Part shown: piece by piece, positions 1,983-15,161 of the stretch
How positions within the stretch are numbered: the stretch's first letter is position 1
Layout: every line of letters begins with the position of its first letter
Assembly: GCF_011044495.1 (NCBI RefSeq)
Contig: NZ_CP049143.1
Span: forward strand, 3,472,001-3,536,000
DNA: 64,000 nucleotides
Origin: Roseimicrobium sp. ORNL1
Lineage (GTDB): Bacteria; Verrucomicrobiota; Verrucomicrobiia; Verrucomicrobiales; Verrucomicrobiaceae
Direction: 5' to 3'
Position numbers and translations under genes: made by a program
Notes under the pieces: generated by a model
The model's database searches: none
Seen by the model: only the letters and a program-made list of their open reading frames with translations
What the model was told of the DNA's origin: nothing

Positions 1983-3404
1983 TTAGCCTCTCGCCACATC
2001 CATGCCGAAGTACGCATGGGCGTTCGCGTAGCAGATGCGCTTCACCATGCCACCGACGAGTTCGTAGTCATCTGGCACCAGCCCATTCTCCATGTCGCGG
2101 CCGATGAGGTTGCACAGGATGCGGCGGAAGTACTCGTGACGGGGAGGGGAGAGGAAGCTGCGTGAATCCGTGAGCATGCCCACGAAGTGGCTCAGCAGGC
2201 CCGTGGAGCTCAGCGCATTGATCTGCCACTCCATGCCCTCCAGACAATCGAGGAACCACCAACCGCTGCCGAACTGCAGACGTCCTGCGACGCCCTGCTC
2301 ATTGCCCTGATAGTTTCCGATGATGGTGGAGAAGATGTAGTTATCCTTCGGGTGCAGGTTGTAGAGCACCACCTTCGGCAGGTGGCCGCGCTGCTCCAGC
2401 GTATCGAGGTAGAAGCGCAGGCCTTGGGCGTGGGACGGGTCATCAATGGAGTCGCAGCCGATGTCACGACCGAGGCTCTTGAAGAGGCGGGCGTTCGTGT
2501 TGCGCAGCGCACCGAGGTGGAGCTGCTTCGTCCAGCCCTTCTCCGCATCGAGCTGGCCGAAGTAGAGCATCAGGTAGGAGCGGAAGCGCGTGATGGCCTC
2601 TGCCGAGAGCGCCTTGCCCGCGCGTGCCTGGTCGAAGATGGACTTTGCCTCGGCATCCGTCGCCGTCTCCGTGTCCATATTTGTGAGACCATGGTCGCTT
2701 AGGCGTCCGCCAATGGAGTGGAAGAAGTCATGTCTCTGGCGAATGCCCTGCAGGAAGGAATCCAGCGTATCGCACGCCTGTCCCGTGATGCCCGCGAGCT
2801 TGTCCACCCAGGCATTCCACGCAGGCACGTCTTCCAGGCGCATGCCCGCGTCCGGGCGGAAGGTGGGATACACCTTCACGGGGAAGTCACTGAGCTTCGC
2901 CACGGCTTGGTGATGCTCCAGCGTATCCGTGGGATCATCCGTGGAGCACACCACGCGCACATTCGAGCGGGAGAGCAGGTTCCGGCAGGAGTACTCCGGC
3001 GTGGCCAGTTGCTCGTTACAGCGGTTCCAGATGCTCTCCGCCGTCTTTTCATTCAGGGGCTCGTCGATGCCAAAGAAGCGCTTCAACTCCAGCGCCGTCC
3101 AGTGGTAGAGCGGATTGCGCAGCGTGTGCGGCACCGTCTTGGCGAACGCGAGGAACTTCTCCTTCCACGGCGCATTGCCGGTCACATGGCTCTCCGGGAT
3201 GCCATTGGCCCGCATCGCGCGCCACTTGTAGTGGTCACCCCCCAGCCAGATGTGGGCGAGCGTCTCAAATTTCTGGTCCCGCGCCATCTCATCCACCGGG
3301 AGGTGGGTGTGGTAGTCGTAAATGGGCTCATTCTCGGCATACTCATGGTAGAGCCGCCGGGCAGCCTTGGTCGTCAGGAGGAAGTCGTCGTGAATCAGAG
3401 ACAT
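1983..3404 (-). CDS. uxaC: Glucuronate isomerase (uronate isomerase)
   Basis: Uronate isomerase converts D-glucuronate to D-fructuronate (and galacturonate to tagaturonate) in hexuronate catabolism in the cytoplasm. The 473-residue length matches the family (about 470). The sequence has the amidohydrolase-fold metal motif YDYHTHLP near residue 28, FHSIGGRLSDHGL in the middle, and the C-terminal segment MLTDSRSFLSPPRHEYFRRIL typical of UxaC. I chose the ATG at 3404 because family members begin within a few residues of MSLIHDDF; an upstream in-frame start at 3476 adds an unconserved Pro-rich leader. No other hexuronate gene is adjacent. Confidence 0.95.
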   Translation of the reverse strand: MSLIHDDFLLTTKAARRLYHEYAENEPIYDYHTHLPVDEMARDQKFETLAHIWLGGDHYKWRAMRANGIPESHVTGNAPWKEKFLAFAKTVPHTLRNPLYHWTALELKRFFGIDEPLNEKTAESIWNRCNEQLATPEYSCRNLLSRSNVRVVCSTDDPTDTLEHHQAVAKLSDFPVKVYPTFRPDAGMRLEDVPAWNAWVDKLAGITGQACDTLDSFLQGIRQRHDFFHSIGGRLSDHGLTNMDTETATDAEAKSIFDQARAGKALSAEAITRFRSYLMLYFGQLDAEKGWTKQLHLGALRNTNARLFKSLGRDIGCDSIDDPSHAQGLRFYLDTLEQRGHLPKVVLYNLHPKDNYIFSTIIGNYQGNEQGVAGRLQFGSGWWFLDCLEGMEWQINALSSTGLLSHFVGMLTDSRSFLSPPRHEYFRRILCNLIGRDMENGLVPDDYELVGGMVKRICYANAHAYFGMDVARG

Positions 3405-3512
3405 GCCGCCAGCTAAGCGCGTAGCGGGAGCGGGGTCAAGAGGAGGGGTGGGGCAGACACAGTCGAACCGGAGCATCCCGCCCCCTCTGACAGCATCTCA
3501 AATACCCAGCAG

Positions 3513-3544: not shown

Positions 3545-4261
3545 CTAGCGCTTCGCCTTCACATCCAAAATCACCCACCCACCCGCAGGGGCTTTGTCAT
3601 CGTACTGACTGAAGAGGTTCTGATCGCTACCGCTACCAAGGTCCTTCATCGGCACTGCTGTTCCCGTCTTTGACGCCAGCGGCTGAATTCCCACGCTGCT
3701 GTCGTTCATGCCAATGATGATGCCATTCCTCCATGCGCGCCCGCGCGTCTTGGTTTCTTTGGCATCGACATTCCACTTGGGTGACCAAGTAGCCACGGCC
3801 GGATTCTCATACACCAGGGGTATGCTACCGGGGTCCCGGTCATTCACGCCTTTCGTCATCGCCCAGTGGTTTTCTCCCGCTTCGACTGCCAGCTTGAACT
3901 CGGGTGCCTCACCGATGTTGAAATCAGGAACAAACGGACTCACTGCACAGCCGAACATACTCTCAGCATCACTACCTTCGAGGACGCCTGCCTTGAACAA
4001 TTCGCGGAAGACCTCGTTGGCATTGCTTGTGTTCTGCAGAAATGCGTCCGGATACTTTCCATCGTGATCGGAAGAGTAGATGCGCAGTGCCGTGATGATC
4101 TGCCGGCAGTTGGAGATGCCCTTGCTTGTTTCACCTCTTTCTCTAAGTCCGGTGCGTGGTGTGATTAGCGCTGATGCAACGAGGAGCGCGGCAATTAAAC
4201 CTACGATGACCTGCACCCAAGTGCATCCGCGTTTCTGGTGTGGTTGAGGGCCTTCGCTCAT
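3545..4261 (-). CDS. Pseudopilin-like protein, tandem copy 8 (most distal)
   Basis: This 238-residue paralogue closes the array. A membrane segment at about residues 13-34 is placed exactly like a type IV pilin helix: counting from Cys13 as position 1, the family motif NCRQII starts at position 39 as in copy 2. Gly(-1) is kept (KRG/CTWVQ) but Glu5 is Gln. The soluble part carries DGKYPD, GENHWAMT, YENP, WSPKWN and GIIIGMNDSSV. The C-terminus ends ILDVKAKR. The start ATG overlaps the stop of copy 7 by 4 bases (4258-4261), so the two are translationally coupled. Confidence 0.85.
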   Translation of the reverse strand: MSEGPQPHQKRGCTWVQVIVGLIAALLVASALITPRTGLRERGETSKGISNCRQIITALRIYSSDHDGKYPDAFLQNTSNANEVFRELFKAGVLEGSDAESMFGCAVSPFVPDFNIGEAPEFKLAVEAGENHWAMTKGVNDRDPGSIPLVYENPAVATWSPKWNVDAKETKTRGRAWRNGIIIGMNDSSVGIQPLASKTGTAVPMKDLGSGSDQNLFSQYDDKAPAGGWVILDVKAKR

Positions 4262-4977
4262 TGGGGAACTTGGATGTCAAGAATCTCTCCCTTGGGAAAA
4301 GTGGCGGGCTCAATCGACGCCTCAAAGAGGTCTCTGCCGTCAACCTTCTTAAGCGGCACCTCTACCCCCGTGTCCGAATCGAGCGGCTGCATACTTACGC
4401 TGCTGTCATTCAAGCCCACGATGACTCCACTCGGAGACGACCTGTGTCCGAGTCTCCATGCACGACCGCGAGTCTCAGTTTCCCTCGCATCTACGTTCCA
4501 TTTTGGTGACCAAGTGGCAACTGCCGGGTTCTCGTACACCAGAGGAATGCTTCCTGGGTCTCTGTCCGAAACACCCCTCGTCATTGCCCAGTGGTTCTCG
4601 CCCGCTTCGAGTGCCTGCTTGCAGTCCGGCGTCGCGCCGATGTTACCATCAGGGACAAAGGGGCTGAGTGGGCATCCAAAGATGAGCTCATTGTCCAAGA
4701 TGGTTTCCTGAAACAGCACCCGGAAGACTTCATTGGAAGTCCGCGGGTCGGAGAGCTCTGCATCCGGGTATTTCCCGTCATGATCGGAGGAGTAGATTCT
4801 CATCGCCGTGAGGATTAGCCTGCAATTCGAGATGCCAGTGAGTCTCTTGTCCTTTTCTCTGGTGATTGAAAGGAAGGGAATCACCAGCGAGCCGAGCATG
4901 AGTATCGCGACCACCATCGCCAGCACACTCATACAGCCGGAAAGCAACCTCTTGATTCCTTGAATGGCGCTGCTCAT
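4258..4977 (-). CDS. Pseudopilin-like protein, tandem copy 7
   Basis: A 239-residue array member. The hydrophobic helix (about residues 14-38, SGCMSVLAMVVAILML) has no acidic residue at the pilin position 5, and its spacing to the NCR motif differs by two residues from the others. NCRLILTAMRIYSSD replaces the usual NCRQII. It retains DGKYPDAE, GENHWAMTRG, SIPLVYENP and GVIVGLNDSSV, and ends with GEILDIQVPQ, the family C-terminal motif (G-E-x-L-D-x). It is 55 bp from copy 6 and overlaps copy 8. Confidence 0.85.
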   Translation of the reverse strand: MSSAIQGIKRLLSGCMSVLAMVVAILMLGSLVIPFLSITREKDKRLTGISNCRLILTAMRIYSSDHDGKYPDAELSDPRTSNEVFRVLFQETILDNELIFGCPLSPFVPDGNIGATPDCKQALEAGENHWAMTRGVSDRDPGSIPLVYENPAVATWSPKWNVDARETETRGRAWRLGHRSSPSGVIVGLNDSSVSMQPLDSDTGVEVPLKKVDGRDLFEASIEPATFPKGEILDIQVPQ

Positions 4978-5032
4978 GTAACATGGGGTCTATAGATCTG
5001 CGGGCGCAATTTTTACGTTGAGTGTGTCTTCT

Positions 5033-5734
5033 TCACTTTGCGCCCGGAGTTGATTCCACGTTCAGGATCGTCCAGTCAGTGCCGTGCTGGGTAAATAGGT
5101 TCTCTCCGTCACCATTGACCAGGTCCTTTAAAGGCACCTCTGTCCCCGTTTTGGACCCCAGCATCTGAATGCCCACGCTGCTATCGTTCATGCCGATGAT
5201 GATGCCATTACTCCAAGAACGCCCAGGAGTCTTGGTTCCCTTGGCATCAAGGTTCCATTTGGGTGGCCATGTAGCCACGGATGGATTCTCAAACATCAGA
5301 GGAATGCTACCCAAGTCACTGTCTGAAAGCCCCTTGGTGAGCGCCCAGTGGTTTTCGCCCGCTTCGAGCGCCTGCTTGAAATCGGGTGCCTTGCCAATGT
5401 CGCCGTCAGGAACATACGGACTCATTGGACAGCCGAAGAGCAACTCGTTATCGATGGCCATCGTCTGAAACAACACCCGGAAGGCCTCATTGGAGCTTCG
5501 TGGACTGGCCAGCGCAGCGTCCGGGTACTTTCCGCCGTGGTCCGACGAATAGATTCTCATCGCAGTGATGATCTGTCGGCAGTTGGAAATGCCGATGGTG
5601 ATGTTGCCCCTTTTGGAGGTGCTACCAAGGTACGTAACGGCCACCGATGCCAGCAGGCAGAAGGCTATCAGGCCCACCACTATCTTCAAGCAATCGAGGC
5701 GGGGGTTCTTGTTGGATTGGATGACGTAGCTCAT
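5033..5734 (-). CDS. Pseudopilin-like protein, tandem copy 6
   Basis: A 233-residue array member. The N-terminal helix aligned on the NCRQ motif reads LDCLKIVVGLIAF, so Lys occupies the position of the pilin Glu5, and Arg the Gly(-1) position. The soluble domain has DHGGKYPD, GCPMSPYVPDG, GENHWALTKG, FENP and GIIIGMNDSSV. The start at 5734 matches the N-termini of its neighbours and sits 4 bp after the stop of copy 5; a longer in-frame reading to 5806 would run into copy 5. Confidence 0.85.
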   Translation of the reverse strand: MSYVIQSNKNPRLDCLKIVVGLIAFCLLASVAVTYLGSTSKRGNITIGISNCRQIITAMRIYSSDHGGKYPDAALASPRSSNEAFRVLFQTMAIDNELLFGCPMSPYVPDGDIGKAPDFKQALEAGENHWALTKGLSDSDLGSIPLMFENPSVATWPPKWNLDAKGTKTPGRSWSNGIIIGMNDSSVGIQMLGSKTGTEVPLKDLVNGDGENLFTQHGTDWTILNVESTPGAK

Positions 5735-5738
5735 AGAC

Positions 5739-6443
5739 TCAAGGTGCTCCTTCCACATCCAGCATGGCTCCCGTGGGAAGAGTGGTGGGATTGATCGCCG
5801 CCTCAAAGAGGTCTTTGCCCTCCGTTTTCCTTAGCGGCACCGCTGTCCCACTCTTTGACTCCAGCGGTTGGATGCCCACGCTGCTGTCGTTCAGCCCAAC
5901 AATGACGCCATTGCTCCACGCCCTGCCTCGCGCATTCGTTCCTTTGGCATCCGCGTTCCACACCGGGGGCCAGGTCGGCTTCGCCGGATTCTCATACACC
6001 AGCGGAATCCCCCCCGGAGCACTGTCCGTCAGATCCCTCGTCATCGCCCAGTGGTTCTCTCCAGCATCTACGGCACTCTTCCGCGCGGGGTCATCGCGGC
6101 CGCCGATGTTTCCGTCCGGAACAAACCGGCTGATCGGGCAGCCGAATATCAATTCGTTGTCGAGAATGTTCTCTGTGAACAGCACGCGGAAGGCTTCGTT
6201 GGAACTTTGCGGATCCGTCAGTGTCGCATCCGGATATTCACCTCCATGATCCGAGGAGTAGATCCTCATCGCGGTGATGATTTGCCGGCAGTTGGAGATG
6301 CCCTTGGTGATGTTGCCTCTCGCACAGGTGCGGCCAAAGGTAGGCACCGCCAATGATGCGAGCAGCGCCAGGGCCAGGAGTGCCACCATCACCTGAACAA
6401 AAGTGAGGCGTGTCTTCTTGGGGGCGGGGGCTTCTTCATTCAT
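5739..6443 (-). CDS. Pseudopilin-like protein, tandem copy 5
   Basis: A 234-residue array member. The helix LTFVQVMVALLALALLASLA has Gln in place of Glu5 and Arg at -1, with the exact 39-residue spacing to NCRQ. DHGGEYPD, FGCPISRFVPDG, a short Asp/Arg insertion (GGRDDPARK), GENHWAMTRD, YENP and GVIVGLNDSSV follow. The C-terminus GAMLDVEGAP matches the family end. The start at 6443 was chosen by alignment with the paralogues; the open frame continues to 6560 without homologous sequence. Confidence 0.85.
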   Translation of the reverse strand: MNEEAPAPKKTRLTFVQVMVALLALALLASLAVPTFGRTCARGNITKGISNCRQIITAMRIYSSDHGGEYPDATLTDPQSSNEAFRVLFTENILDNELIFGCPISRFVPDGNIGGRDDPARKSAVDAGENHWAMTRDLTDSAPGGIPLVYENPAKPTWPPVWNADAKGTNARGRAWSNGVIVGLNDSSVGIQPLESKSGTAVPLRKTEGKDLFEAAINPTTLPTGAMLDVEGAP

Positions 6444-6607
6444 GGGTATGTAACATGTTTGATGGCTTGTAGTCAGGCCTGTTCCACAGGAGAGGTTCTT
6501 GGGATTGAAGGGGTGATTTGGGCATGGTTTCTCCGGCGACCTGCCTGGAAGGGCGGTCATACAGGTGATGCTGCGTCTGGTATGTAGGAAGGTGGAGATC
6601 CCTCAGG

Positions 6608-7315
6608 TCATTCCACATTCAGCACCTCTCCCTTGGGAAAGGTCTTCGGATCAATCGCTGCCTCGAAAGCATCTTTGCCAGTGGCAGCATCCGGCTTCAG
6701 GCTTACGGATGGGCCATGCTCGGATGCCAACGGTTGAAGGCTCACGCTGCTGTCATTGAGTCCGATGATGATGCCCTTCTTCCAGGTGCGGCCCCGCACA
6801 GGCTTGCTTGCCATGTCGGCATTCCACCTTGGCGGCCACGCGGCGCTCACCGGGTTCTCATATACCAAGGGGATTTTTCCAGGGGCGGAGTCATTCAATC
6901 CCGCCGTCATCGCCCAGTGATTCTCTCCGGCCGCCACCGCCTTGGCGAACTTGGTATCTTGCGGACCGAGGTACGCATCTTCAATCTTGCCGTCAGGCAC
7001 AAACGGGCTGACGGGCGAGGCAAAGATCATCTCATTGTCGAGGATAGCTTCATCGAAGAGTTTGCGGAAGACCGTGTTCGCAGTTTTCGCTCCTTGCACC
7101 TGGGCATCCGGATATTTCCCATCGTGTTCCGCAGAGTAGATGCGCAGGGCCGTGATGATCTGGCGGCAATTGGAGATGGCCTTCGTAATATTGCCTCTCT
7201 CCTGGATCCGATGACCCCCATCGCACGATACAGTCGCCAGGAGGAGCGTCAGCAGCGAGAAGGTAAGCACTCCCATACCCAGTTCCGCCTTGTTCAGTAT
7301 TTGTCTGCGTTCCAT
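6608..7315 (-). CDS. Pseudopilin-like protein, tandem copy 4
   Basis: A 235-residue array member, the last (reading along transcription) to keep the pilin Glu5: its N-terminus is LNKAELGMGVLTFSLL after a five-residue charged leader. There are four extra residues between the helix and NCRQII, and a Cys-Asp-Gly-Gly just after the membrane segment. The soluble region contains EHDGKYPD, FASPVSPFVPDG, GENHWAMTAG, YENP and GIIIGLNDSSV, ending GEVLNVE. A 134-bp spacer separates it from copy 3, and a 164-bp spacer from copy 5; I see no gene in either. Confidence 0.85.
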   Translation of the reverse strand: MERRQILNKAELGMGVLTFSLLTLLLATVSCDGGHRIQERGNITKAISNCRQIITALRIYSAEHDGKYPDAQVQGAKTANTVFRKLFDEAILDNEMIFASPVSPFVPDGKIEDAYLGPQDTKFAKAVAAGENHWAMTAGLNDSAPGKIPLVYENPVSAAWPPRWNADMASKPVRGRTWKKGIIIGLNDSSVSLQPLASEHGPSVSLKPDAATGKDAFEAAIDPKTFPKGEVLNVE

Positions 7316-7449
7316 GAGGCCATGGCACCAGAAAAGCTTTTGCGGAACAAGGCGGAATCAGGCCTTCACATACAATTCACAGTCCCTTCACATATCCCCA
7401 GGAACCATCGTAATGGCATCTGCGCTGGGCTCCGTTCGACGGCTGATGC

Positions 7450-8151
7450 TCACTCCACATCTAGCACCTCACCCTTGAAAACATCATCTGAGGCCGCCTC
7501 TAGAGCCTCTGCGAACAAGTCTTTTCCTGTGTATGGATCAGGCCGCAGACCCACGGCTGCCCCATGTGTCGAAGCCAGAGGCTGGAAGCCCACGCTGCTG
7601 TCATTCATGCCGATGATGATGCCACTCTTCCAGGCACGGCCGCGCACTGGATTTCCGGTCATGTCTGCATTCCACTTCGGAGGCCACGTGGCGCTCACGG
7701 GATTTTCATAGATAAGAGGGATGCTTCCTGATATTCCATCACTGAGTCCCGCCGTCATAGCCCAGTGATTCTCGCCAGCCTGCAAGGCTTTGCCAGACTT
7801 GCTTGAGTTGGGTCCGGCGTGGGGATCCGCAATGACTCCATCAGGTGCAAATGGGCTGAGGGGACAGCCAAAGATCATCTCATTGTCGAGGATGTTCTCC
7901 TCGAAGAGGAGCCTGAAGGCCTTGTTGGCTGTTTTTGTGCCAATGACGTCCCTGTCAGGATACTTGCCAGAGGCATCCGGGGAATAGATACGCATTACAG
8001 TGATGATTTGCCGGCAGTTGGAGATGGCCTGCGTGATCTTGCTCCGCTCAGAGGCTCTCTCGGATAGCTTGTATGCAACGCCGCTCAGAAGCAGCAGCGC
8101 CAGAATTACCACCCCAAGCTCGACCTTCGTGAGGCGCATCCTCTTATCCAT
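7450..8151 (-). CDS. Pseudopilin-like protein, tandem copy 3
   Basis: A 233-residue array member very similar to copy 2, including the bases just upstream of the ATG, so these two are the youngest duplicates. The N-terminus RLTKVELGVVILALLLL keeps Glu5 but has Arg instead of Gly(-1). Motifs: NCRQIITVMRIYSPD, GKYPDRD, FGCPLSPFAPDG, GENHWAMTAG, YENP, GIIIGMNDSSV, C-terminal GEVLDVE. The start at 8151 is set by alignment with copy 2; the open frame upstream to 8325 overlaps copy 2 and is not conserved. Confidence 0.85.
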   Translation of the reverse strand: MDKRMRLTKVELGVVILALLLLSGVAYKLSERASERSKITQAISNCRQIITVMRIYSPDASGKYPDRDVIGTKTANKAFRLLFEENILDNEMIFGCPLSPFAPDGVIADPHAGPNSSKSGKALQAGENHWAMTAGLSDGISGSIPLIYENPVSATWPPKWNADMTGNPVRGRAWKSGIIIGMNDSSVGFQPLASTHGAAVGLRPDPYTGKDLFAEALEAASDDVFKGEVLDVE

Positions 8152-8200
8152 GGTTGCATACCAACAGAGATTGCTGGGAAAGGCAAGTCCGCGGCGTGTG

Positions 8201-8911
8201 TCACTCCACACCCAGCACTTCAACCTTAAAAGGATCATCTGAGGCTGCCTCAGCTTCATCGAATGCCGCTTCGAACAAGGCCTTGCCTGTTTCGGGATCG
8301 GGACGCAGACCCACAGCTGCCCCATGTGCCGAGGCCAGTGGTTCGAGGCTCACGCTACTGTCATTGAGTCCAACGATGATGCCACTCTTCCAGGCACGGC
8401 CACGCACCGGATTCTCGGACATGTCAGCATTCCACTTTGGAGGCCACGTGGCGCTGACAGGATTTTCGTACAGCAAGGGGAAGCTTCCTGATGAAGAGTC
8501 TTCCAGTTCGGCAGTCATCGCCCAATGATTCTCGCCAGCCTGCACTGCCTTGTAGAACTTGCTTGAGTTGGGTTCGATGTGGGAATCTGCAATGACTCCA
8601 TCAGGAGCGAATGGACTGAGTGGGCATCCAAAGATCATCTCATTGTCGAGGATCTGCTCCTCGAAAAGCTTCCGGAAGGCATGGTTGGCCGTCTTTGAGA
8701 CGGTGCCCCTTGCATCGGGATACGTGCCGGAGCAATCAGAGGAATAGATTCGCATAGCCGTGATAATTTGCCGGCAGTTCAAGGTAGCCTTCGCGAGGTT
8801 GTTCCGTTCGTTCAGGCTCTCGAACACTTTGTATGCGATGGCGGTCAGGAGCAGCAGCGCCAGTATTCCCAACCCAAGTTCGACCTTCGTAAAGCGCTTC
8901 TTTTTATCCAT
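8201..8911 (-). CDS. Pseudopilin-like protein, tandem copy 2
   Basis: A 236-residue member with the most pilin-like N-terminus of the array: RFTKVELGLGILALLLL matches the Phe1-Thr2-x-x-Glu5 start of type IV (pseudo)pilins, except that Arg replaces the Gly that prepilin peptidase cuts after. Position 39 is the Asn of NCRQIITAM. GTYPDARG, FGCPLSPFAPDG, GENHWAMTAE, YENP and GIIVGLNDSSV follow. Its upstream spacer (8912-9107) contains the decayed histidine kinase fragment. Confidence 0.87.
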   Translation of the reverse strand: MDKKKRFTKVELGLGILALLLLTAIAYKVFESLNERNNLAKATLNCRQIITAMRIYSSDCSGTYPDARGTVSKTANHAFRKLFEEQILDNEMIFGCPLSPFAPDGVIADSHIEPNSSKFYKAVQAGENHWAMTAELEDSSSGSFPLLYENPVSATWPPKWNADMSENPVRGRAWKSGIIVGLNDSSVSLEPLASAHGAAVGLRPDPETGKALFEAAFDEAEAASDDPFKVEVLGVE

Positions 8912-8981
8912 GGTTGCATGCCATCAGAAATGGCATTGCAAGGCAAGTCCGCAGCGTGCTGTATTGGAGAAAGTTTCCTGC

Positions 8982-9107
8982 TCAACCTACCACTCCCGCC
9001 AGCACCACTTTCACCTGTGCGCCGCGTCCCGGCTGGCTCTGCACTTCCAGGGTGGCTCCCATCTTCTTGGCGCGCTCCTACATGCCTCAAATCCAGAAGT
9101 GCCTGTC
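8982..9107 (-). pseudogene. Decayed C-terminal fragment of a histidine kinase
   Basis: Read on the minus strand from about 9107 to the TGA at 8984-8982, one frame translates with two internal stops into a sequence matching the end of the intact kinase at 9907-11952: DRHFWI-stop-GM-stop-ERAKKMGATLEVQ against DGHFGIRGMQERTKKMGADLEVV, then GRGAQVKVVLAGVV against GAGTKVKVGIKGVV. The stops correspond to an Arg and a Gln codon, so both are explained by single transitions (CGA to TGA, CAG to TAG). It starts directly at the stop of pseudopilin copy 1. It shows that a kinase-3'-end plus pseudopilin unit was duplicated in tandem. Confidence 0.8.
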
Positions 9108-9797
9108 TCACTCACCTGCATCGATATCCAGTACTTCTCCCTTGGGAAAATTCACGGGGTCAATCGCCAGTTCGAAGATGTCCTTGCCGTCGCGTTCCTT
9201 TGCCAACCCCACAGCTTTTCCCTCTTTGGCGGCAAGTTCTCGTGGGGACACGCTGCCGTCATTCTGACCAACGACGATGCTCTCCGTCCATGATCTGCCG
9301 CGGGTGTTCGTCCACCGCTGGTCGACACTCCAGTTTGGCGGCCAGGATGCGTTTGCAGGATTCTCGTATACGAGGGGAATGTCACCAGGCTTGTTGATAT
9401 CCATCCCAGCCGTGAGAGCCCAGTGGTTTTCTCCGGGTTCCAATGCTCTGCGCTTCTCGTCATCATCACCAAGGATTCCATCGGGGACGAAACGACTTAC
9501 TGGAGAGGTGAAGATCATTTCATTCTCGGTGTATTTTCCGTTGAAGAGTCTGCGAAAAGCCATGTTCGAATTCCGCGGCATATTCCCGAGTTGACTGTCC
9601 GGATATTTTCCGTCGTGGTCGGCGGCATACGCTTTCATCGCGAGAATGATCTGTCGGCAGTTTGCGGTGGCTTTAATCAGGTTGCCTTTTTCATATCGAA
9701 GGTACCCGGGTGCTTTCGGCCAAATGGCGTAGATGACCACCAGCGCCAGTACTCCGAGGCTTGCCATTTCAGATTTCGTCAGTCTTCTCACGCCCAT
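9108..9797 (-). CDS. Pseudopilin-like protein, tandem copy 1 (kinase-proximal, least degenerate)
   Basis: The 229-residue founder-like member of the array. The N-terminus is a short Arg-rich leader followed by LTKSEMASLGVLALVVIYAI, a pilin-type helix with Glu5 but Arg instead of Gly(-1). Then come NCRQI (46-50), DGKYPD (62-67), GENHWA (122-127), YENP (144-147) and IVVGQNDGSV (174-183). The last motif is closest to the ADG(H/S)V signature of the H-X9-DG pseudopilins common in Verrucomicrobiota and Planctomycetota. The C-terminus GEVLDIDAGE defines the family end. It lies 109 bp downstream of the kinase on the same strand. By family it should be a membrane-anchored protein with an exported C-terminal domain; its partner machinery is not in the window. 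Confidence 0.87.
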   Translation of the reverse strand: MGVRRLTKSEMASLGVLALVVIYAIWPKAPGYLRYEKGNLIKATANCRQIILAMKAYAADHDGKYPDSQLGNMPRNSNMAFRRLFNGKYTENEMIFTSPVSRFVPDGILGDDDEKRRALEPGENHWALTAGMDINKPGDIPLVYENPANASWPPNWSVDQRWTNTRGRSWTESIVVGQNDGSVSPRELAAKEGKAVGLAKERDGKDIFELAIDPVNFPKGEVLDIDAGE

Positions 9798-9906: not shown

Positions 9907-11952
9907 CTACACTACTCCTTTGATCCCCACCTTTACTTTTGTCCCTGCACCCTCCGCACTCACTACCTCCAGATCTGCGCCCATCTTCTTTGTTCGCTCC
10001 TGCATCCCGCGAATTCCGAAGTGCCCATCCAGTGCTCGTGCTACAGAAGGGTCGAATCCTTTTCCATCATCGGTGATGACAAGGTTTAGCGAGTTGGTGC
10101 TGGGATCTGAAGCCAGCGAAACAGACACATTCCTTGCTTGAGCATACTTCAGCGCATTATTCACCGCCTCACGCGTGATGCGCAGGAGATGATGCTGCAC
10201 CAGCGGCGGCACCTTTAACTCAGTGATATTACTCTCAAACTTCAAGGGTACCGCCGTGTTCACCTGCAAGTGCTCCATCAGCGAGCGCAACGCCGCATCC
10301 AGCGGCGCATCTTGTCGCGAGGCATCACGGAGGTCCCATACAAAATCGCGCGTGTCCGTCTGCAACCTTCCCAGCAAACGCCGCTGCTGATCCAGCAGGC
10401 CGTGCGCCTTTTCATCCGTCACGCGAGGCAGCGCGGCATCCAGTCGCAAGGATAGCCCTGCAAGCTCCTGCTCCAGGGTGTCATGAAACTCGCGCGCGAT
10501 GCGCTGGCGTTCTTCCATGATGGCCTCACGCTGGGCCTTCGCCTCGATGACCGCGAACTGCCGCGAGACCTGCCGACGCAGCAGCGCGATCCAAATCAAT
10601 GCGAGTAGCGCCAGCGCCACCAGAGCGGCAAAAGCCAGGCCGATGCGCTCGGAGTTCCACCACGGAGTGCTGCGGAGGATGACCACATCCTCCGGACCGC
10701 GTGGCCACAGTCGATACGCGGTGGGCTTCGCCCGATAACCGTCGCTGCGGGTGGCGGTCACGCGGCTCAGCCCGGTCACGCGCAGCAGAGCGCCGCTCTG
10801 CACCTCCCGTGGCAGGACCGTGGGTGAGGTGACCTCGATGCTTACCGGCCCAGCCTGGGTGACAAGCTCCGTGCCGTGATCGCGGTCGATACGCTGTGCG
10901 ACCTGCACCTCTGTCGTAATCAAGTCCGCATCTCGTCCATCCTGCAGGCCACCCGGGTTTTCCACCGTGGGCTGGGGAACAGGCTCGCTGCCTACCACAC
11001 GGCACTCCGCCTCGGTCAGATGCGCGCTGAAGACACCCATCTCAGGAAATCCCAGAGCCTCCACCACATCACCCGCCTTGATGCCCGTGTCATCCGTCTG
11101 GACGAAGACACTCTCATCCCCCTGACGCAGGAAGAGACCACCGGCGACCGGGGCGCTCAGCGCCACACCCTGAATCTTCACCCGATGTGCATTGGGGATG
11201 GCACGCTGCAACTCGGGCAGGGGAAGGGGAGGCGACTTGAAGGCCTCCGTCGGTGGCCGCTTGAGCAGTTCTACATCATCGATGCTGCGCACGCGGATGT
11301 AGGGCGCGACCAGTTCTCGCCGATCATTGATATCGCCCGCCGCCAAGCCTTTGATGCGCAGTTCCGCATCCACCCAGGGCGGGAGTTCCGTGGGAACTTC
11401 ATCGAACCGCACCTCGACCACTTTCGCGCCGGTCAGCAGCCGCAGGGTGAAGGCGTTTTCCCCCACACGATGCAGCGAGCGTCCAACGCCGGAAAGCGTC
11501 ACGTAGTGATAGTGGTATCTTCCGGAGGCCAGGTCATCCTGCGTAATCTCCCGCGGCGCCGGCGGTGGCTCATACCGTCCCAGAAACTCGATGGTTTCAG
11601 GCTTGATGCCGCCAATGATGAGACCGCTGTGAGTGACTCCCTTTACCCGAAGGCGCGTGCCAATGGCCGGTCGCGGATTGGACTTCGCCGCACGGATGAA
11701 GGTCACCCCTGTATCATCTTGGAGGAAGATGGTGTTTCCCGGATCCATGAAGGTCACCACTGCATCCAGGGACACCGGCGGTGGGTCGCCGTCCTTGGGT
11801 GTCACGTGCGCCGAAATGTCACGCGCCGTGGTGAGCGTCTGCACCGGTGACTGCGCCCCGAGAGGAAGGCAAAAGACCGCTAGACTCCACAGCAGCACCT
11901 TCGCAAACGCGATGCGGCTGAAGGAAGAAGGCGGCCAGACGGGCACAGGCAT
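9907..11952 (-). CDS. Orphan membrane sensor histidine kinase (NarL/DesK-type HisKA_3)
   Basis: A 681-residue sensor kinase. An N-terminal signal/anchor (residues about 14-35, KVLLWSLAVFCLPLGAQ) is followed by about 400 residues of exported sensor region with repeated OB-like beta-rich segments. A membrane helix near 445-465 (LAFAALVALALLALIWIALL) and a short linker (EAKAQREAIMEERQ) lead to the phospho-acceptor motif IAREFHDTLEQELAGL with His near residue 487. The HATPase domain shows ITREAVNNALKYA (N box), DDGKGFDP (G1) and GHFGIRGMQER (G2). No response regulator is encoded anywhere in the window. An in-frame GTG at 12000 is an alternative start. It heads the pseudopilin array, suggesting co-expression. 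Confidence 0.9.
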   Translation of the reverse strand: MPVPVWPPSSFSRIAFAKVLLWSLAVFCLPLGAQSPVQTLTTARDISAHVTPKDGDPPPVSLDAVVTFMDPGNTIFLQDDTGVTFIRAAKSNPRPAIGTRLRVKGVTHSGLIIGGIKPETIEFLGRYEPPPAPREITQDDLASGRYHYHYVTLSGVGRSLHRVGENAFTLRLLTGAKVVEVRFDEVPTELPPWVDAELRIKGLAAGDINDRRELVAPYIRVRSIDDVELLKRPPTEAFKSPPLPLPELQRAIPNAHRVKIQGVALSAPVAGGLFLRQGDESVFVQTDDTGIKAGDVVEALGFPEMGVFSAHLTEAECRVVGSEPVPQPTVENPGGLQDGRDADLITTEVQVAQRIDRDHGTELVTQAGPVSIEVTSPTVLPREVQSGALLRVTGLSRVTATRSDGYRAKPTAYRLWPRGPEDVVILRSTPWWNSERIGLAFAALVALALLALIWIALLRRQVSRQFAVIEAKAQREAIMEERQRIAREFHDTLEQELAGLSLRLDAALPRVTDEKAHGLLDQQRRLLGRLQTDTRDFVWDLRDASRQDAPLDAALRSLMEHLQVNTAVPLKFESNITELKVPPLVQHHLLRITREAVNNALKYAQARNVSVSLASDPSTNSLNLVITDDGKGFDPSVARALDGHFGIRGMQERTKKMGADLEVVSAEGAGTKVKVGIKGVV

Positions 11953-12029
11953 GGTGATGGTGGGACAACTCTTATCCCACCAAAGCACAAGGTGCCACAC
12001 CTGGGTAGCGCGATGACTGCAGGTGCCAG

Positions 12030-12450: not shown

Positions 12451-13836
12451 ATGCGTTGCAGCTTCCTCTACATCCTCATCACCTTTGGCGCCGTCCTCTC
12501 CGGCCCAATCCGTTCTTCCCAAGGCGCCGACTCAGACAGGCACGTCATCCTCATCAGTGTGGATGGCATGGCGCACTACTACTTCGACGACCCAAAGGCC
12601 GAGATGCCGACCATCCGGCGCCTGGCGGCTGAGGGAGCGCGAGCGAAGCAGATGACCACTTCACTGCCCACGGTCACCTGGCCGAATCACACCACCCTTG
12701 TCACCGGGGTGCATGCAGGGAAGCACGGCGTGATTGGAAATGACTTCTTCGACCGCAAGGAGCAGAAGGTCGTGGCCTACATTCCCGACCCGGTGTTCAA
12801 CAAGGACGAAATCGTCAAGACGCCCACCATCTACGACGTGGCTCATGACGCGGGCCTGAGCACTGCCGGCGTCTGCTGGCCCGCCTCTCGTGGGGCGAAG
12901 ACCTGGAACTGGACCATCCCGGATGTATTCGAGCAGGCGACCTTTGAGCAATACAGCACACCTTCCCTCCTGGCCGAGTGCCGGGAAGCAGGCATCCCCT
13001 ACGAGAAGCAAAATGAATGGTGCAAGCTCGGCACTGCTGGCAAGCCCATGCGCGACTGGCTGTATGCCAATGTCGCCACCCACATCATCCGTAAACACAA
13101 GCCGGGACTCATGTGCCTGCATTACATGAGCGTGGATGGTCTCCAGCACGGTTACGGCAGCAAGACTCCCGAAGCCTATTGGGCCATCAATGACTCGGAC
13201 AACCGTGTGCGCCAGATCGTGGAGGCCGTGGAAGAGGCGGGCCTGAAAGACAAGACCACCTTCGTGGTCACGGCGGACCACGGCTTCATCACCTACAAGA
13301 AGCGCATCCAGCCGAATGTCCTGCTGAAGAAGGAAGGTCTCATCAAGGCCGCGCTGGGGAACAAGGTCACCGAACGCCGCGTCTGGTGCCATGCTCAGGG
13401 CGTGGCCTACATCTACGTCTTGGATCAAGCGAACCGTGAAGCCCTCTTGAAGGACATCACTCCGAAACTCGCCGCCATGGAGGGCATCGAGGAAGTGATT
13501 GAAGAAAAGGACTTCGCCAAGTACGGCCTGGAAACTGCGGCCAAGGACCCACGCATGCCGGACCTCATTCTCTCGCCGAAGGACGGTTATGTCATCGGTG
13601 CCGATGTCGGCGGTGATGAAGTAGTAGTCTCCGCAGGAGAGGCCAAGGGCGCACACGGCTACTCCCCGGCAAATCCCCTCATGGATGCCAGCTTTGTCAT
13701 CAGCGGCGCAGGCATCAAGAAGGGTGTGGTGCTTGATAAGATTGCCAACATCGATGTGGCTCCCACCATCGCAAAACTCCTCGGCGTGGAAATCAAAGGT
13801 GCAGATGGCCGCGTTCTCACGGAGGTGCTGAAATGA
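12451..13836 (+). CDS. Secreted alkaline-phosphatase-superfamily phosphodiesterase (ENPP-like)
   Basis: A 461-residue exported enzyme of the type I phosphodiesterase/nucleotide pyrophosphatase family. After a signal peptide (about 1-25), ISVDGM supplies the first metal-binding Asp, SLPTVTWPNHTTLVTG holds the catalytic Thr, VTADHGF gives the Asp-His metal pair, and GAHGYSP the last metal His. Such enzymes hydrolyse nucleotide or lipid phosphodiesters; the substrate cannot be told from sequence. The ATG at 12451 follows a good ribosome-binding site (GGGGGA at about 12441-12446) and gives a proper signal peptide. An earlier in-frame ATG at 12346 does not. Its stop overlaps the start of the PL6 gene by 4 bases. 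Confidence 0.88.
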   Translation: MRCSFLYILITFGAVLSGPIRSSQGADSDRHVILISVDGMAHYYFDDPKAEMPTIRRLAAEGARAKQMTTSLPTVTWPNHTTLVTGVHAGKHGVIGNDFFDRKEQKVVAYIPDPVFNKDEIVKTPTIYDVAHDAGLSTAGVCWPASRGAKTWNWTIPDVFEQATFEQYSTPSLLAECREAGIPYEKQNEWCKLGTAGKPMRDWLYANVATHIIRKHKPGLMCLHYMSVDGLQHGYGSKTPEAYWAINDSDNRVRQIVEAVEEAGLKDKTTFVVTADHGFITYKKRIQPNVLLKKEGLIKAALGNKVTERRVWCHAQGVAYIYVLDQANREALLKDITPKLAAMEGIEEVIEEKDFAKYGLETAAKDPRMPDLILSPKDGYVIGADVGGDEVVVSAGEAKGAHGYSPANPLMDASFVISGAGIKKGVVLDKIANIDVAPTIAKLLGVEIKGADGRVLTEVLK

Positions 13837-15161
13837 AAATCTTTTCACCGTTCGTCACCCCCTGTCTCACGCTGGCACTTCTGGCTTGCGACGCCCTCGC
13901 GGCGGCCGAGTCACGCGTTGCTGCCAATGATATCGCCGCCTTCGAGGCTGCGGTGGGAGCTGCCAAGGCGGGAGACACCATCATCCTCGATGCCGGAGAG
14001 TGGAAGGACGCCACGCTCGTATTGAAAGGGGAGGGGAGCAAAGACAAGCCCATCACGCTGCGCGCGGCCTCTCCTGGTGCAGTGAAGTTCACCGGCGACA
14101 GCAGTTTGCGCCTCGCTGGCCAACATCTGATGGTGGAGGGATTGTGGTTTCACAATTGCTTCCCCCTGAAGTGGGATGTCGTGATGTTCCGCGAAGACTC
14201 AAAGAACCTCGCCAGCCACTGCAAGCTGCGTGATTGTGCCATCACGCAGGACGCGGAAACAAAGGACAGCAAGGAACGGAAGTGGGTCTCTCTCTATGGC
14301 CTCGGGAATGTGGTGGAACACTGCCACTTTGAAGGAAAAACCAGCAAGGGCACTCTGCTGGTAGCCTGGCTGCCAGAGGCTGCCGGTGAACCTCCGAAAC
14401 ATGAAATCCTGAACAACTACTTCGGCCCCCGTCCCCGGCTGGGGAAGAACGGCGGTGAAATCATCCGTCTGGGCGATAGCGATACCTCGATGCAGGAAGC
14501 TCAATGCGTGGTCCGCGGAAACCTGTTTGAGAAGTGTGATGGCGAGGTGGAGTGCATCTCCAACAAGTCGTGCGGCAACGAGTATGGCGGCAATTCGTTC
14601 ATCGAGTGCCAGGGCACGCTCACCCTCCGTCACGGCAATGGCTGCCTGGTCATGCAGAACTGGTTCGACGGGAAGAATCGCAAGTTCACCGGCGGCATCC
14701 GCATCATCGGGGAGAACCACACCGTGACCGGCAACCACCTCCAGAATCTCGAAGGTGATGAGGCCCGCACGGCCATCTGCGTGATGAATGGCATCAAGGA
14801 TTCCCCCGCGAATGGTTATCTTCAGGTGAAGAACGCGGTCGTGGCAAGCAACTCCATCTTTGACTGCAAACACAGTGTTCTCATCGGCTATGCGGACAAG
14901 GATGTGCAGGCGCTCATGCCTCCAGAATGTCGCTTTGAGGGAAACTCCATTCGCACGCGCGGAGGGGTGGCCATTGAGTTGATCGAGCCCGCTGCCAAGT
15001 TGAAGTGGATGAGCAACATCATCGGAGGTGGAGAGTCTGGGTTATCGGTGAGTGAAGGCATCACCATGGTGGCTCCAGAGAAGGTGTCGCAAGCCAGATT
15101 GGCCAAACCCGTGAATCGTGCAGATGTCGGAGTGAAGTGGATGCCTCCTGCGGCGAAATAA
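13833..15161 (+). CDS. Polysaccharide lyase family 6 (chondroitinase-B/alginate lyase-like)
   Basis: A 442-residue secreted beta-helix protein (signal peptide about 1-24). The segment AKAGDTIILDAGEWKDATL opens the PL6 fold. The catalytic pair of the family is recognisable: the Lys in CISNKSCGN and the Arg in LTLRHGNGC, which correspond to the conserved Lys and Arg of chondroitinase B. It would cleave uronic-acid polysaccharides (alginate or chondroitin/dermatan) by beta-elimination outside the cytoplasm. The ATGA overlap with the preceding phosphodiesterase indicates coupled translation. Which polymer is used cannot be decided here. Confidence 0.87.
   Translation: MKIFSPFVTPCLTLALLACDALAAAESRVAANDIAAFEAAVGAAKAGDTIILDAGEWKDATLVLKGEGSKDKPITLRAASPGAVKFTGDSSLRLAGQHLMVEGLWFHNCFPLKWDVVMFREDSKNLASHCKLRDCAITQDAETKDSKERKWVSLYGLGNVVEHCHFEGKTSKGTLLVAWLPEAAGEPPKHEILNNYFGPRPRLGKNGGEIIRLGDSDTSMQEAQCVVRGNLFEKCDGEVECISNKSCGNEYGGNSFIECQGTLTLRHGNGCLVMQNWFDGKNRKFTGGIRIIGENHTVTGNHLQNLEGDEARTAICVMNGIKDSPANGYLQVKNAVVASNSIFDCKHSVLIGYADKDVQALMPPECRFEGNSIRTRGGVAIELIEPAAKLKWMSNIIGGGESGLSVSEGITMVAPEKVSQARLAKPVNRADVGVKWMPPAAK

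Follow-up and report, generated by a model that had tools for sequence, protein, structure and literature searches.

Tandem pilin-derived proteins of Roseimicrobium sp. ORNL1 have largely lost the prepilin signal and are probably retained as membrane-anchored periplasmic proteins

An N-terminal assembly signal is usually taken as the defining feature of a pilin, and a locus of Roseimicrobium sp. ORNL1 raises the question of what a pilin becomes when that signal decays and the remainder of the protein is kept. The window (the whole stretch of 64,000 nucleotides that was analyzed) contains eight intact tandem open reading frames, all on the minus strand at positions 3545-9797, which are predicted to encode proteins of 229-239 amino acids. 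The earlier note described these as eight genes for one and the same domain, and the description holds, as the proteins can be aligned over their full length. The alignment has approximately 50 invariant columns, and copy 1 is 41-49% identical to the other seven copies, which is far above chance.

Copy 1, the promoter-proximal gene (9108..9797), has the anchor RLTKSEMASLGVLALVV, with Arg at residue -1, Glu at position 5 of the helix, and a spacing of 40 residues between helix position 1 and the Asn of the NCR motif. Copy 2 (8201..8911; anchor RFTKVELGLGILALLLL) and copy 3 (7450..8151, with the start corrected to 8151; RLTKVELGVVILALLLL) have the same two residues at a spacing of 38, while copy 4 (6608..7315; ILNKAELGMGVLTF..ATVSC) has Ile(-1), Glu5 and a spacing of 42. 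Arg(-1) and the spacing of 38 recur in copy 5 (5739..6443, corrected start 6443; RLTFVQVMVALLALALLASLAVPTFGR) and copy 6 (5033..5734, corrected start 5734; RLDCLKIVVGLIAF), with Gln and Lys at position 5, respectively. Copy 7 (4258..4977) has Leu(-1) and, in register, Ser at position 5, and it overlaps copy 8 (3545..4261; GCTWVQVIVGLIAALLV) by 4 bases (ATGA). Copy 8 has Gly(-1), Gln5 and a spacing of 38.

Seven of the eight copies lack Gly or Ala at -1; Ala is no anomaly there, as 29 of 68 canonical relatives carry it. The earlier note had reported that Arg replaces Gly(-1) in most copies, which is the case in five (copies 1, 2, 3, 5 and 6), and that only copy 8 keeps Gly. Its position 5 calls were also correct, the neutral residue in copy 7 being Ser, as was the common frame that it gave to copies 2, 3, 5, 6 and 8: the 38 residues from helix position 1 to the Asn (39 counted inclusively) are also found in 65 of 68 canonical family pilins. 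The register has slipped by +2 in copy 1 and by +4 in copy 4, and by -3 in G1, the orthologue of copy 4 in a second species of the genus. None of the eight copies scores above the cut-off of any Pfam or NCBIfam pilin model, including the prepilin-signal models PF07963 and TIGR02532, although copy 5 gives a weak match to GspG (E 0.006). Comparison with DUF1559 (PF07596) and H-X9-DG (TIGR04294) proteins, which the earlier note had recommended, was run as a model search and returned no match for any array copy; some relatives of the array proteins match PF07596 below threshold, at the helix end. A search of the genome with PF07596 matched nowhere and is uninformative, since the controls also gave no match. 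The DUF1559 and H-X9-DG proteins of Planctomycetes and Verrucomicrobia are likewise large paralogous pilin-like families, but the array heads carry the motif GENHWA/PLVYENP/NDSSV rather than H-X9-DG.

That these proteins derive from pilins, as had been proposed, is supported by a canonical paralogue in the same genome, by a helix and linker common to both, and by the predicted fold. The complete 7.96 Mb genome encodes three more full-length family members outside the array. The canonical paralogue (L085:7607-8302; N-terminus GFTLIELLVVITIIAILASLAVPTFGR / MKTRLQQGFTLIELLVVITIIAILASLAVPTFGRIQERGNITKGISN) scores above the cut-offs of PF07963 and TIGR02532 and is the best of the 31 N_methyl matches in the genome. 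Copy 5, the array member nearest to the canonical pilin in helix and linker, aligns with it without gaps through ASLAVPTFGR...RGNITKGISN, and the head of the canonical protein is 63-65% identical to those of copies 5 and 6. The array is therefore pilin-derived, and by this sequence comparison its proteins share common ancestry with the canonical pilin.

Structure prediction, also recommended earlier, points the same way. AlphaFold models, computed from alignments that contained canonical relatives, have a mean pLDDT of 93.2 for copy 5, with a helix at residues 15-64, and a pLDDT of 88.6 for copy 4, and both are predicted to adopt the lollipop pilin fold with a long alpha1. The ten PDB chains listed for the copy 5 model are all type IV pilins, the predicted fold matching PilA4, PilE and TcpA; the best match is T. 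thermophilus PilA4 (Z 5.5, 117 residues, 3.5 A), and the Z values are middling. Structural matches for copy 4 are weaker but consistent. A plain Foldseek search against the PDB gave no significant match. A family profile that includes canonical members matches the solved pilins geopilin (E 1.7e-7) and T. thermophilus PilA (E 1.9e-4). The array proteins thus resemble type IV pilins and T2SS pseudopilins such as PilA and GspG in their long N-terminal helix, pilin head and predicted fold, but differ from them in that a recognizable class III signal and mostly Gly/Ala(-1) are missing, Glu5 is inconsistent, and the N-terminus is the least conserved part.

The earlier note had read the array as a graded loss of Glu5 from the promoter-proximal to the distal genes, a reading that depends on position 5 following gene order. 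This is contradicted by the array of G001, the only genus-mate compared, in which five copies occupy the corresponding site, flanked by uxaC and by the same histidine kinase as in ORNL1. In a head-only tree, copy 8 pairs with G5 (97/94), copy 6 with G4 (89/85), copy 5 with G3 (87/88) and copy 4 with G1 (99/84); copies 2 and 3 are sisters (99/91), copy 1 groups with the solitary paralogue L087 (92/83), and copies 2-4 form a single clade with one genus-mate orthologue. At least four array genes are older than the split of the two species. Position 5 differs between orthologues, copy 8 having Gln and G5 Glu (RVLTWPEM), and copy 6 having Lys and G4 His. Because the distal G5 has Glu and G4 has His, Glu5 does not track array order, and the (T/N)K(V/A)E common to copies 2-4 is due to shared descent. 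The third copy of the genus-mate array (L084:8011-8700, minus strand) has an in-frame TAA in its head (SSN*VFRVL) and is either a pseudogene or an assembly error.

The neighborhood offers clues to how the array arose. A NarL-type sensor histidine kinase with HisKA_3 and HATPase_c domains (9907..12000, minus strand) lies directly upstream of the array, an order kept in the genus-mate, and has no paralogue in the genome at E<=1e-60. Directly after copy 1 and before copy 2 there are 126 bases (8982..9107, minus strand; translated ERAKKMGATLEVQSQPGRGAQVKVVLAGVV) of a decayed histidine-kinase 3' end with two in-frame stops, whose local DNA alignment scores 48 against a shuffle maximum of 33. From its sequence this remnant is apparently the scar of a tandem duplication, the unit of which apparently took in the end of the upstream kinase gene. 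The array is probably a tandem expansion specific to this lineage that began with a canonical Verrucomicrobiaceae pseudopilin. Array and kinase are flanked by uxaC (glucuronate isomerase; 1983-3476) and, on the other side, by a chondroitinase B-type polysaccharide lyase (13833-15161), in the same order in the genus-mate; it is speculation that these neighbors hint at uronic polysaccharides. A sigma-70 scan found no promoter-like site, and none of the plasmids has a near copy of the array.

What has changed in the array is the distribution of constraint. Between the two species, N-terminal identity is 96% for the canonical orthologues and 34-59% for the array orthologues, and head identity is 76% and 66-78%, respectively; helix spacing differs by seven residues between copy 4 and G1. 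For the heads, dN/dS is 0.06-0.15 in both array pairs that allowed an estimate of dS; values for the other pairs are omitted because synonymous sites are near saturation. Within-class mean identity over the 38-residue segment is 67% for canonical and 17% for non-canonical members, and over the heads it is 56% and 43%, respectively. These comparisons indicate that the heads are conserved while the N-termini are relaxed. Of the earlier suggestion that the family is shifting from assembled to membrane-anchored subunits, the signal loss, conserved heads and relaxed N-termini agree with the shift itself, and only its gradient along the array is given up. The genome search that the earlier note had called for found a complete PilD-like prepilin peptidase together with GspE-type ATPases, GspF-type platform proteins and secretins, and thus the signal was not lost for want of machinery.

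Given that most copies lack Gly(-1), half lack Glu5 and the anchors drift, the array products are best interpreted as pilin heads that remain anchored in the membrane without being cleaved. The array copies have lost the class III signal while keeping a strongly conserved, presumably periplasmic head and, by prediction, the pilin fold; they would not be cut by prepilin peptidase or polymerize by themselves, and an uncleaved N-in/C-out helix, or perhaps a lipobox in copy 4, would most likely hold them in the inner membrane. Selection has probably favored these heads as unprocessed periplasmic proteins that do not self-polymerize, putatively displayed as fixed binding or adaptor modules.

Half of the array copies are like GspK and minor tip pilins in being pilin-like subunits without Glu5. 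GspK is processed and is encoded in a pseudopilin cassette, whereas most array copies lack Gly(-1) too, and the paralogue array lies beside a histidine kinase, with no GspH/I/J cassette seen there. The earlier note took both Glu5 and Gly(-1) to be needed for processing and assembly, which is accurate for Gly(-1), a critical residue for processing by prepilin peptidase, but too broad for Glu5, which is dispensable for processing and required for homopolymer assembly (PMC4471445). It is improbable, but consistent with several features, that some or all copies are still filament subunits, entering the filament together with the canonical pilin as minor pilins or as caps at the tip although their signal is atypical. 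Wild-type subunits can co-assemble with Glu5 mutants (PMC4471445), and filaments are capped by GspK, a tip subunit without Glu5 (PMC10191384). The exact spacing of 38 in copies 2, 3, 5, 6 and 8 agrees with such a role, and the presence of Gly(-1) in copy 8 and Glu5 in copies 1-4 makes some processing or co-assembly possible; by analogy, copy 8 may have a GspK-like capping role. Against continued assembly are the seven copies without Gly/Ala(-1), the lack of an adjoining minor-pilin cassette, and N-termini far more divergent than the assembly interface of the canonical pair.

Alternatively, the N-termini could now act as conventional Sec signals, with signal peptidase I releasing the heads into the periplasm or signal peptidase II producing lipoproteins in the copy 4 lineage. 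The hydrophobic runs of copies 2 and 3 are short, at 16 residues, and end in TAIA/SGVA, and copy 4 (ATVSC-D) and G1 (GTVAC-D), whose registers are far apart, share a lipobox-like motif, so that some copies may be lipidated or released. AXA-like sites do not discriminate, because canonical pilins have them equally (ASLA|VP), and the uncharged runs of 18-29 residues in copies 5-8 are typical of transmembrane anchors; as an account of the array, Sec cleavage is unlikely. That the array is a relic of functionless copies decaying after duplication is very improbable: the stop codon in one of the five genus-mate heads and the kinase remnant with its stops inside the array would fit decay, but the eight genes of the window are all intact, the heads of orthologues have kept their identity although synonymous sites are near saturation, and at least four genes were already present when the two species diverged. 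Under the favored reading, of uncleaved anchored heads, the conservation of the head through repeated decay of the signal, alongside a canonical paralogue and a peptidase that are both intact, suggests that pilin heads can be selected for a role other than filament formation. The array also supplies naturally occurring variants with which to probe the need for Gly(-1) and Glu5.

The family is present in 58 of 61 Verrucomicrobiaceae genomes, with long arrays only in the two genomes of this genus, and among the fetched sequences at least 24 genomes have both canonical and non-canonical members. Nothing was found on this protein family in the literature. Signal-based annotation misses such proteins, and pilin-derived proteins are therefore probably undercounted in the phylum. 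Changes between the canonical and non-canonical state number 9 on a tree of 130 heads and 8 on a tree of 71, although these were quick trees with long branches dropped and the exact number is uncertain. An anchor of GWGCLQW or RWGCLQW stands in place of GFTLIEL in 24 relatives (Gln at position 5 in 22, the 38 register in 17), and a single clade for GWGCLQW-type anchors is rejected (AU test, p 0.00015). A single origin of the altered signal was discarded on the basis of these 8-9 changes and the AU test; the recurrent anchor in the face of a rejected clade suggests either repeated change or an exchange of anchors among paralogues. The genus's own canonical pilin nests, with weak support, within the array clade, a placement more in keeping with several independent losses than with a single one, and a regained signal in that pilin is unlikely. 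Relatives with GWGCLQW anchors in other genera (e.g., L023, L130 and L143) share the head and an altered anchor with the array, but they mostly occur as one to four genes per genome. The possibility that WGCLQW is a generic membrane anchor of unrelated proteins was dismissed, as a scan of 60 genomes found 24 sites, only six of which were not known beforehand to belong to the family: three inside an ABC permease-like protein, two in short spurious frames and one in a truncated family member.

In one relative (L018:8425-9567) Pfam places GYF_2 and DUF4190 domains ahead of the pilin head in a single protein, and the head is therefore portable onto another membrane module. For L138 and L139 the resemblance to this protein is confined to a similar anchor sequence, and an anchor sequence of that type is also present in L019. 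More tentatively, and at somewhat less than an even chance, the pilin head may have been made into a permanent membrane-anchored periplasmic protein repeatedly across Verrucomicrobiaceae, through replacement of GFTLIEL by a GWGCLQW-like anchor or through GYF-DUF4190 fusion, with the arrays of this genus as the most expanded form, possibly coupled to the kinase. Two proteins of approximately 460-496 amino acids (L012:1267-2655, minus strand, which has no Pfam match, and L071) match the head in part, over profile positions 50-130, and are without the pilin helix. Canonical relatives of genus g8 (L025, L041 and others) have a Pro/Gly-rich C-terminal tail that is not in the array proteins, and many of them have Ala(-1).
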